Positions 27,223 through 30,317 of a DNA stretch of 64,000 nucleotides are shown here, in pieces. Source of the stretch: Thermomonas sp. XSG (GTDB lineage Bacteria; Pseudomonadota; Gammaproteobacteria; Xanthomonadales; Xanthomonadaceae); NCBI RefSeq assembly GCF_014678725.1, contig NZ_CP061497.1, positions 2,372,001 to 2,436,000 of the forward strand, read 5' to 3'. Positions within the stretch are counted from its first letter, which is position 1. Each line of letters starts with the position of its first letter. The translations under genes were made by a program, and so were the position numbers. Below the pieces are notes generated by a model that did not search any database, was not told the DNA's origin, and saw only the letters and a program-made list of their open reading frames with translations.

Positions 27223-28356
27223 ATGAGCGACGTACTCCACCTCACCCGCGAACTGATCGCGCGGCCGTCGGTGACGCCGGACGATGCCGGTTGCCAAGCC
27301 TTGATCGCAGGTCGGCTGGCGCGAGCCGGGTTCGCCATCGAGCACCTGCGCTTCGGCGATGTCGACAACCTCTGGGCTACCCACGGCCACGGCGGCCCGG
27401 TGCTGGCGCTGCTCGGCCATACCGACGTGGTGCCGCCCGGCCCACGCGAGGCCTGGGCCAGCGACCCGTTCCTGCCCGAGGTCCGTGACGGCCTGCTGTA
27501 CGGGCGCGGCGCCGCCGACATGAAGGGCAGCGTCGCCGCGTTCGTCATCGCGCTGGAACGCTTCGTCGCCGCGCATCCGGACCATCCTGGCACGGCGGCC
27601 CTGCTGCTGACCTCGGACGAGGAGGGCGATGCCATCGACGGCGTGCGCAAGGTCGCCGAGGTGTTCCGCCAGCGCGGCCAGCGCATCGACTGGTGCATCA
27701 CCGGCGAGCCGTCGTCGAAGGCGGCGCTGGGCGACCTGCTGCGGGTCGGCCGCCGCGGCACGCTGTCGGCCACGCTCACCGTGCATGGCGTCCAGGGCCA
27801 CGTCGCGTATCCGGAAAAAGCGCGCAATCCCATCCACCAGGCGCTGCCGGCGCTGGCGGCGTTGGCGGCGAAGCGTTGGGACGAGGGTTACGAGAGCTTC
27901 CCGCCGACCTCCCTGCAGATCAGCAACGTCCACGCCGGCACCGGCGCCAACAACGTCATCCCCGGCGAGCTGCAGGTGCTGTTCAACCTGCGCTACAACC
28001 CGCACTGGCGCGCGGAGCGGCTGGAGTCCGAATGCGAGGCGGTGCTGCGCGCGCACGGCCTCGAATACGCGCTCCACTGGCATCGCGGCGGCGAACCGTT
28101 CCACACCCCGGAAGGCCCGCTGCGCGCTGCCGCGCGCGAAGTGCTGGCCGCGTTCACCGATGGCGCGCTGCCCGAGGAAAGCACCGGCGGCGGCACCTCC
28201 GACGCCCGCTTCATCGCCCCGCTGGGCGCGCAGTGCATCGAGATCGGCCCGGTCAACGCCAGCATCCACAAGGTCGACGAACACGTGCGGGTGGCCGACC
28301 TGGAGCGGTTGCCGGACCTGTACCTGGCGCTGATGGCGCGGCTGCTGGCGGATTGA
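27223..28356 (+). CDS. dapE: Succinyl-diaminopimelate desuccinylase
   Basis: 377 aa from ATG 27223. M20 peptidase with the dinuclear zinc set: '[11 protein letters not shown]' (His and Asp), '[15 protein letters not shown]' (Asp ligand), '[11 protein letters not shown]' (catalytic and ligand Glu), and '[17 protein letters not shown]' (C-terminal His). The dimerisation lid reads '[22 protein letters not shown]'. It hydrolyses N-succinyl-LL-diaminopimelate for lysine and peptidoglycan. asnB with its own attenuated promoter follows. Confidence 0.96.
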
Positions 28357-28365
28357 GGGGGGCGC

Positions 28366-28395
28366 TTGCGCGTTCCCGATCCGGCGTGCCATAGT
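28366..28395 (+). promoter_or_regulatory. Putative promoter of the asnB leader
   Basis: TTGCGC (28366-28371), 18-nt spacer, CATAGT (28390-28395). The predicted start falls at about 28401-28402, exactly at the ATG of the leader peptide. No ribosome site precedes that ATG, so the leader would be translated from a leaderless mRNA. Confidence 0.5.
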
Positions 28396-28401
28396 CGGCC
28401 C

Positions 28402-28488
28402 ATGCGCTTCTTCGCCGCCAACGCCAACAACCTCAACCGCAATAATCGCGGCACGAACCATCGTGCGCGGCTGCGGGCCCGCGCATAG
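28402..28488 (+). CDS. Asn-rich leader peptide of the asnB attenuator
   Basis: 28 codons: it starts MRFFAANANNLNRNNRGTNH and then ends in a basic tail RARLRARA and TAG. Seven of the 28 residues are Asn (codons 7, 9, 10, 12, 14, 15, 19), against an expected one. Codon 12 to 15 is read as AAC CGC AAT AAT. It lies 99 nt upstream of asparagine synthetase and directly ahead of a terminator hairpin. By analogy with his, thr, trp and leu leaders, a ribosome stalled for lack of Asn-tRNA would prevent termination. Too short for routine ORF calling. Start ATG at 28402 coincides with the predicted transcription start. Confidence 0.8.
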   Translation: MRFFAANANNLNRNNRGTNHRARLRARA

Positions 28489-28546
28489 GCGAAGCGACAG
28501 CAAGCCGGAATCACCCAAAGCCCGCATCGAAGGATGCGGGCTTTTT
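28472..28546 (+). promoter_or_regulatory. Transcription attenuator of asnB (antiterminator and terminator)
   Basis: Terminator: AGCCCGCATC (28519-28528), loop GAAG, GATGCGGGCT (28533-28542), then a T5 run; a perfect 10-bp stem. Antiterminator: TGCGGGC (28472-28478, codons 24-26 of the leader peptide) is exactly complementary to GCCCGCA (28520-28526), the left arm of the terminator. A ribosome stalled at the Asn codons (up to 28458) leaves 28472-28478 free to pair, which breaks the terminator. A ribosome that reaches the stop at 28486-28488 covers it and lets the terminator form. Confidence 0.8.
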
Positions 28547-28586
28547 CGTTGTGCGGTTTTCACCCATCCACCAAGGAATCCCCACC

Positions 28587-30317
28587 ATGTGCTCCATCTT
28601 CGGCATCTTCGGGCTGCAGCCCGGCGACGACCTTCAGGCCCTGCGGCGGCAGTCGCTGGAACGCTCGCAGAGGCAGCGCCATCGCGGCCCGGACTGGAGC
28701 GGGGTATACATCGACAACGGCGGCGGTGGCAGCGGCGCGATCCTCGTGCACGAGCGGCTGGCCATCGTCGATCCGGCCGGCGGTTCACAGCCGCTGTTGT
28801 CGGCCGACGGGTCGCTGGCGCTGGCGGTGAACGGCGAGATCTACAACCACGTGGCGCTGAAGCGGGAGCTGTCGCAGCCGTATGCCTTCCAGACCGAGTC
28901 GGACTGCGAGGTCATCAACGCGCTCTACCGCGAGGGTGACGCCGATGGGAGGGGGCCGGCATCGTTCCTCAACCGCCTCAACGGCATCTTCGCGTTCGCG
29001 CTGTGGGACAGCGCGAAGGGGCGCGCGATCATCGCCCGCGATCCCATCGGGGTGGTGCCGCTGTACTGGGGCCACGATGCCGAAGGCCGGCTGCGCGTGG
29101 CCTCGGAGATGAAATCGCTGGTGGACGATTGCGCCGACGCGGCGCAGTTCCCGCCCGGGCACTGGTACGACTCCGCGAGCGGGCAACTGACGAAATACTA
29201 CGAGCGCCCGTGGCGCGACTACGACGCGGTGGAAGGCGTCGAGGTGCCGCTGGCCGAGCTGCGCGAGGCGTTCGAGGCCGCCGTGCACCGCCAGTTGATG
29301 ACCGACGTGCCCTATGGCGTGCTGCTGTCGGGCGGGCTGGATTCCTCGCTGGTGGCGGCGGTGGCGGCACGCTACGCACGCCACCGGATCGAGGACGGAG
29401 ACAGGACCGAGGCGTGGTGGCCGCGCCTGCACAGCTTCGCCATCGGCCTGAAGGGCTCGCCCGACCTGGCCGCGGCGCAAGTGGCGGCGGACATGCTGGG
29501 CACGGTCCACCACGGTTTCGAATACACCTTCGAGGAAGGCCTGGACGCGCTGCCGGAGGTGATCCGCCACATCGAGACCTACGACGTGACGACCATCCGC
29601 GCGTCCACCCCGATGTTCCTGCTCGCGCGGCGGATCAAGGCGATGGGGGTGAAGATGGTGCTGTCCGGCGAAGGCAGCGACGAGGTGTTCGGCGGTTACC
29701 TGTACTTCCACAAGGCGCCCAACGCGCGCGAATTCCACGAGGAGCTGGTGCGCAAGCTCGACGCGCTCAGCAACTACGACTGCCTGCGCGCCAACAAGTC
29801 GATGATGGCCTGGGGCGTGGAGCCGCGGGTGCCGTTCCTAGATCGCGAGTTCCTGGACGTGGCGATGCGCATGGACGCGGCGCACAAGATGGTGCGCAAG
29901 GGCGATCCCGGCCCGCAGCGGATGGAAAAGGGCGTGCTGCGCGCGGCGTTCGAGGGCTACCTGCCGCCGGAGATCCTGTGGAGGCAGAAGGAGCAGTTCA
30001 GCGATGGCGTCGGCTACGGCTGGATCGACGGCCTGAAGGCACACGCGGAGGCCGAGGTGTCCGACCGCGTGCTGGCCGCGGCCGACAAGCGTTTCCCGGT
30101 CAACCCGCCGCAGACCAAGGAAGCGTACTGGTACCGGCACATCTTCGAGCAGTTCTATCCCAGCCGCGCGGCGGCGGAAACGGTGCCGGGCGGCAAGTCG
30201 ATCGCCTGTTCATCGGCGGCGGCGATCGCGTGGGACGCCAGCTTCGCAGGCATGGCCGACCCCTCCGGCCGCGCGGTGGCGGGGGTGCACAACGACGCCA
30301 TCGCGGCCGCGGGCTGA
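28587..30317 (+). CDS. asnB: Asparagine synthase (glutamine-hydrolysing) B
   Basis: 576 aa from ATG 28587. Cys2 is the glutaminase nucleophile ('MCSIFGIFG'). Ntn domain with 'HRGPDWSGVY', 'HERLAIVDP' and 'LAVNGEIYNH'; synthetase domain with the ATP pyrophosphatase loop 'YGVLLSGGLDSSLVAAV' and 'LSGEGSDEVFGGY'. The C-terminus matches long class B enzymes ('EAYWYRHIFEQFYPS'). It makes Asn from Asp, Gln and ATP. Expression appears to be controlled by the Asn-codon attenuator upstream. Its stop is 1 nt from the end of the convergent diguanylate cyclase gene. Confidence 0.96.
   Translation: MCSIFGIFGLQPGDDLQALRRQSLERSQRQRHRGPDWSGVYIDNGGGGSGAILVHERLAIVDPAGGSQPLLSADGSLALAVNGEIYNHVALKRELSQPYAFQTESDCEVINALYREGDADGRGPASFLNRLNGIFAFALWDSAKGRAIIARDPIGVVPLYWGHDAEGRLRVASEMKSLVDDCADAAQFPPGHWYDSASGQLTKYYERPWRDYDAVEGVEVPLAELREAFEAAVHRQLMTDVPYGVLLSGGLDSSLVAAVAARYARHRIEDGDRTEAWWPRLHSFAIGLKGSPDLAAAQVAADMLGTVHHGFEYTFEEGLDALPEVIRHIETYDVTTIRASTPMFLLARRIKAMGVKMVLSGEGSDEVFGGYLYFHKAPNAREFHEELVRKLDALSNYDCLRANKSMMAWGVEPRVPFLDREFLDVAMRMDAAHKMVRKGDPGPQRMEKGVLRAAFEGYLPPEILWRQKEQFSDGVGYGWIDGLKAHAEAEVSDRVLAAADKRFPVNPPQTKEAYWYRHIFEQFYPSRAAAETVPGGKSIACSSAAAIAWDASFAGMADPSGRAVAGVHNDAIAAAG

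Follow-up and report, generated by a model that had tools for sequence, protein, structure and literature searches.

The dapE-asnB interval

The window, by which we mean the whole stretch of DNA analyzed here, 64 kb long, carries the gene for asparagine synthase B (asnB) downstream of dapE, and between the two genes lie an asparagine-rich reading frame, which we call the leader, and an intrinsic terminator. The parts of the locus, in order, are:

27223-28356, plus strand: dapE, the upstream neighbor (NCBIfam TIGR01246, 1.1e-160)
28366-28371, plus strand: -35 hexamer TTGCGC of a probable promoter for the leader, from a promoter-pair search
28390-28395, plus strand: -10 hexamer CATAGT of the same probable promoter, with a gap of 6 nt to the leader ATG
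28402-28488, plus strand: leader ORF of 28 codons with 7 Asn, read from the sequence and kept in relatives
28420-28458, plus strand: putative regulatory Asn codons, read from the sequence and conserved position by position in relatives
28451-28466, plus strand: GCACGA-ACCA-TCGTGC, a weak candidate for a segment-1 hairpin spanning the last Asn codon
28472-28478, plus strand: segment 2, TGCGGGC, lying within the leader and forming the predicted 5' antiterminator arm, from complementarity
28519-28528, plus strand: segment 3, the left terminator arm, common to terminator and antiterminator
28519-28546, plus strand: intrinsic terminator, a 10-bp stem followed by T5, read from the sequence and covarying in 42 relatives
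28573-28577, plus strand: AAGGA, a possible ribosome-binding site of asnB, read from the sequence
28587-30317, plus strand: asnB, glutamine-dependent asparagine synthase B (NCBIfam PRK09431, 2.8e-256)

The match of asnB is well above the family cut-off, and the Pfam families Asn_synthase and GATase_7 match as well. The start codon of dapE is our own choice inside a longer open frame, and 9 nt separate the stop codon of this gene from the -35 box. The leader, MRFFAANANNLNRNNRGTNHRARLRARA, runs from the ATG at 28402 to the TAG at 28486-28488 and its Asn codons start at 28420, 28426, 28429, 28435, 28441, 28444 and 28456. The initial annotation placed the first coordinate of its finding at 28366, which is the start of the -35 hexamer; a TTG-started frame of 40 codons exists there, and it was rejected as the leader since the ATG at 28402 is the likelier start. 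Segment 2 is situated between the last Asn codon and the leader stop, its last base being 8 nt ahead of the point where the stop codon begins, and it is complementary to GCCCGCA at 28520-28526. The terminator hairpin at 28519-28542 is AGCCCGCATC-GAAG-GATGCGGGCT, with T5 at 28542-28546, and its stem can be extended by two flanking A-T pairs to 12 bp. When recomputed, the seven Asn codons among 28, the perfect 10-bp terminator with its T5 and the complementary segment placed after the Asn codons and before the stop, all of which the initial annotation had read directly from the sequence, came out the same. A second match to the terminator region is present in the same genome (G000:C1:306194-306227, locus L002), 87% over query bases 218-255.

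The last 25 codons of the leader hold 7 Asn, as against 0 to 3 at the 1229 other stops among the 1230 stop codons, counted on both strands of the 64-kb window, that are preceded by at least 12 open codons. The complementarity of segment 2 to the terminator arm is a different matter. Its 7-nt score was equalled in 17% of 300 synonymous recodings of the last 12 leader codons, and over the 103 loci of the comparison described below the same null was beaten at p<0.05 in 32 loci and at p<0.2 in 69. Taken alone, the match in the window is thus suggestive at most; because recodings equal it so often, we dropped it as the main evidence and shifted the weight to relatives.

Leader, probable promoter and terminator in relatives

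Among asnB loci of public genomes (80 listed of 591), 40 of the 80 show an Asn-rich ORF followed by a hairpin terminator, with 3 to 9 Asn in the last 25 leader codons. All 40 are of Lysobacterales type, being titled as genera or groups of that order, except that L003 is titled Pseudomonadota and was assigned by similarity. The layout is absent from the other 40 listed loci (L019, L020, L042, L045-L062, L064-L082). A candidate in L061, an ORF end with three Asn and a hairpin, was rejected as the C-terminus of a long upstream gene. Three of these loci, L019, L020 and L042, have an asnB 72-79% identical to that of the window, without an Asn leader, and come from a Holophagales MAG, Rhodococcus and a Deltaproteobacteria MAG, respectively; it is possible that asnB was transferred there without its control region, or that the contigs are misassigned.

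In 200 sampled genomes of the order, asnB was matched 127 times with an E-value of 1e-150 or lower. One partial match (G156) was left out, and 65 of the 126 loci examined have an Asn leader with a terminator. They are concentrated in three families: 33 of 34 loci in f1, the family of the window, 3 of 3 in f2 and 28 of 29 in f12. Outside these the layout was found in 1 of 60 loci (one of the 29 in f7, none of the 28 in f9 and none of the 3 from f4, f5 and f10 together), one of the 60, L192, having only 325 nt upstream. The asnB genes of the exceptions in f1 and f12 (G091 and G067) are 64 and 65% identical to that of the window. Family f1 should be Xanthomonadaceae, and the window should come from Thermomonas or a near neighbor of that genus, because two upstream stretches have identical counterparts, that of G013 (f1) in Stenotrophomonas sp. 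SY1 and that of G146, from the genus of the window, in Thermomonas haemolytica; the f12 loci appear to resemble those of Rhodanobacter and Dyella. In G082, of family f7, locus L163 carries an Asn-containing leader, MFAIYNTINTTNNRLLRSAGSF, and a terminator before asnB (approximately 205 to 85, minus strand), with no -10 box close to the leader start; this leader is possibly of independent origin. No convincing Asn leader with terminator was found in 26 loci of other families of the phylum. Two further candidates were rejected, L231, whose Asn-rich ORF has no terminator in place, and L236, where an ORF end with four Asn and a hairpin 25 nt further on turned out to close a long open frame, as in L061. 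The 4.4-kb locus surrounding asnS (L209) showed no Asn leader.

The window, the 40 listed loci and the loci of the order sample, with duplicates merged, make up the set of 103 distinct loci. Their leader bounds were set automatically, and in L007 the start was placed too far upstream, a nearer ATG having the usual promoter; this locus was kept in the counts. Asn accounts for 672 of the 3519 codons in these leaders. Leader length and flanking residues vary among relatives while the Asn clusters persist, so that what is found before asnB is a short leader with clustered codons for the amino acid that the downstream enzyme produces. In the 42 leaders of Rhodanobacteraceae type, codon -11 is Asn in 41 (AAC in 20, AAT in 21) and codon -15 in 39 (AAC in 16, AAT in 23). 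Free synonymous exchange of this kind points to selection for Asn as an amino acid, since it is Asn itself that is kept, and it is the conservation of Asn codons that the initial annotation had proposed to look for in related genomes. In the 40 loci compared, the share of AAT among Asn codons is 46% in leaders vs 16% in the asnB genes behind them, the leader having the higher value in 37; this over-use of AAT may keep the leader unstructured or slow its decoding. Many leaders also have an Arg-rich C-terminal sequence.

The promoter elements were scanned for by keeping, in every locus, whichever in-frame start gave the highest promoter score, with gaps of 0 to 16 nt allowed. Of the 103 best promoter-like pairs, 95 have a spacer of 17 or 18 nt. 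The gap between the -10 box and the start codon is 6 nt in 55 loci and 7 nt in 34, which makes 89 of 103; both figures are plain counts without a random background. A -10 box at this distance would place the transcription start at the ATG or within about 1-2 nt of it, and the leader mRNA is therefore predicted to be leaderless. The closest precedent for such a leader is trpL of Sinorhizobium meliloti, in which the transcript starts with the leader ATG (PMC7298713). The trpL leader can act as a leaderless mRNA, and the asnB leader would do likewise, although trpL has Trp codons, controls trpE(G) and belongs to an alphaproteobacterium, and the start of the asnB leader, in contrast to that of trpL, is deduced from promoter position.

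Predicted competing RNA structures

Counted from the first base of the leader stop, the terminator starts 22-39 nt downstream in all 41 loci formed by the window and the 40 listed relatives, and it is thereby found between the leader stop and the first structural gene. The distance from the end of the antiterminator arm, taken as the best complement of the left terminator arm, to the leader stop is 7 or 8 nt in 29 of the 41 loci and 3 to 27 nt in the other 12. To fold the antiterminator we took the sequence that begins with this arm and reaches as far as the terminator loop, and shuffled the leader side 100 times per locus. At least 5 nt of the left terminator arm are paired with the leader side in all 103 folds, and against the shuffles the mean z-score is -3.26, with 92 loci below -1 and 78 below -2. 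The value of the window itself, -0.49, is among the weakest, that of L012 is -0.3, and those of L003, L140 and L142 are above 0; because their scores are near or above 0, the antiterminators of these five loci rest mainly on a short core helix or on less. An antiterminator that uses leader sequence located after the Asn codons and before the stop, and that excludes the terminator, is therefore found in the folds of the 103 loci, and is weak at the window.

The core has five bases (GCGGG, or GTGGG or GCAGG with its partner) and was recognized in 85 of 103 loci, in 12 of them with one G-U pair; a recognizable core is missing in 18. Next to it the 85 loci have C-G in 46 cases, T-A in 15, T-G in 7 and no pair in 17. 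Besides conserved Asn codons, the initial annotation had named covarying hairpin arms as a sign to be sought in relatives, and such arms were found. In the terminator, 24 cells of the 42 loci changed on both sides, a number that none of 500 shuffles reached. A second antiterminator helix, around the leader stop, was tested with non-overlapping arms in the 42 Rhodanobacteraceae-type loci of the 103: the native mean is 14.81 vs 13.45 with swapped partners, none of 2000 partner permutations being as good, and position -2 is C-G in 22 loci, T-A in 18, T-G in one and uncovered in one. This covariation was counted per locus because the MAFFT alignment A1 shifts part of the helix by two columns. The core antiterminator helix, on the other hand, shows no significant covariation within alignment A1 or A2, the latter holding 35 of the other 61 loci in 34 distinct rows. 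The reason is that this helix is nearly invariant, with 95% of its cells paired in A1 and 97% in A2. The hairpin around the last Asn codons is plausible: in the 42 loci each arm matches its native partner better than an exchanged one (0 of 2000 swaps as good), and there is modest covariation in the 34 distinct rows of A2, but the folding energy is not unusual, with z-scores of -0.10 and -0.79. All permutation tests given here ignore phylogeny, and kinship among the loci is still contained in their values.

Asparagine supply and the proposed control of asnB

Leader, terminator and segment are conserved in these relatives, in their positions and in their potential to pair. Since the parts, their order, spacing and conservation closely fit such a system, the locus is most probably a ribosome-mediated transcription attenuator of asnB that senses the charging of tRNA-Asn (probability about 0.9), which is the reading that the initial annotation had reached from the window and that comparison with relatives now supports. 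We infer the following course from transcription start to read-through. RNA polymerase would start at or next to the leader ATG and ribosomes would translate the leader from a leaderless mRNA. With ample Asn-tRNA, the ribosome would reach the leader stop and cover segment 2 (28472-28478), upon which the terminator at 28519-28546 would form and transcription would end. When Asn-tRNA is short, the ribosome would stall at the Asn codons, segment 2 would be free to pair with the left terminator arm, no terminator would form and asnB would be read. In an untranslated leader the hairpin around the last Asn codons may, less certainly, occupy segment 2.

The genome of the window (G000), to which the asnS and asnA searches were confined, contains the asparaginyl-tRNA synthetase gene asnS and gave no match for gatB or asnA. 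Asn-tRNA should consequently depend on free asparagine in this genome, which would link the product of asnB to the tRNA that is sensed. In the 200 genomes of the order sample asnB was found in 127, at the threshold given above, and gatB in 56 (52 above the family cut-off); matches to the two never occur together, and 17 genomes have neither. The same dependence of Asn-tRNA on free asparagine, which asnB supplies, should therefore apply wherever the attenuator is present. Four f12 genomes (G012, G031, G053 and G150) have gatB and no asnB match.

The same parts could be attributed to other causes. The hairpin might do no more than terminate dapE, and the Asn-rich frame might be a random ORF, since the gap to asnB is short, co-directional and directly after dapE, and a terminator-like stretch is also present elsewhere in the genome. 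Chance of this kind is nevertheless very improbable, as the same Asn leader, spacing and terminator stand before asnB in 64 of the 66 loci that three families contribute and in all 40 loci of Lysobacterales type (among the 80 listed of 591), and as the leader Asn codons are kept with synonymous exchange. Somewhat less improbable, and still quite unlikely, is that the ribosome responds not to Asn-tRNA charging but is arrested by the nascent peptide, through its basic C-terminal part, or held up by slow decoding of AAU, set for example by a tRNA modification state. The Arg-rich ends of many leaders and the excess of AAT in leaders (46% vs 16% in asnB) would agree with such an arrest or slow decoding, but C-terminal peptides differ between genera where the Asn clusters and the RNA core stay, and it is asparagine that the downstream enzyme synthesizes.

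In Gram-positive bacteria T-boxes regulate amino acid genes, among them those for asparagine, and it could be imagined that a T-box, a riboswitch or a protein-binding leader senses Asn or tRNA-Asn directly here, the ORF being incidental. In Firmicutes the T-boxes of asparagine genes likewise sense uncharged tRNA and act by antitermination of amino acid genes, but there the RNA binds the tRNA directly and no leader is translated. We give very little credit to a direct sensor, because the conserved structure consists of the attenuator helices, the ORF shows coding conservation, and no Rfam family reached its gathering score in positions 27900-29000 of the window or in six relatives, T-box not being among the matches in either. 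In the same section of the window Trp_leader scored 17.9 of the 41 required, Leu_leader 16.6 of 50 and Thr_leader 21.6 of 55 on the leader strand (23.1 on the other strand), and His_leader was not among the matches.

Ribosome-mediated attenuation, the reading we prefer, has well known models in the trp, his, leu, thr, ilv and phe leaders of enterobacterial amino acid operons. The asnB leader shares with them codons for the amino acid that is produced, an antiterminator arm situated after these codons and ahead of the leader stop, and a terminator upstream of the first enzyme gene; it differs in that the amino acid is asparagine, with asnB as the gene directly controlled, and in that a Shine-Dalgarno region is impossible if transcription starts where the promoter suggests. 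Attenuators of the His-leader type in Gram-positive bacteria were proposed by comparison of the same kind (PMC2965389, PMC9413887) and share with the present locus repeated codons, a terminator and an alternative structure, but they have histidine codons and precede hisS or his genes; the string 'asparagin' is absent from the main texts of both papers. No Asn attenuator was found in the literature searched, which includes passages of PMC3771888, PMC1183508 and PMC1262725. The search for printed cases, which gave none, did not cover the survey of Vitreschak et al. 2004 (FEMS Microbiol Lett 234:357), and absence from print is not established. The mechanism is a known one, and asparagine is an amino acid for which no printed attenuator case was found. 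A more far-reaching proposal, modeled on rnTrpL and peTrpL of Sinorhizobium, is that this is the first Asn-specific ribosome-mediated attenuator, found across Xanthomonadaceae and Rhodanobacteraceae, and that its terminated RNA, leaderless, roughly 145 nt long and encoding a basic peptide, would also act in trans; in this complete form we consider it unlikely.

If the attenuator reading is true, ribosome-mediated attenuation would be extended to asparagine, and the results would suggest that a leaderless leader has been kept across several bacterial families. It would also explain the control of asnB in a group which includes Xanthomonas and Stenotrophomonas, and it would tie in with the order-wide split between asnB and gatB. 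The relatives would offer natural variants for how leader codons and competing hairpins set the sensitivity of such an attenuator.
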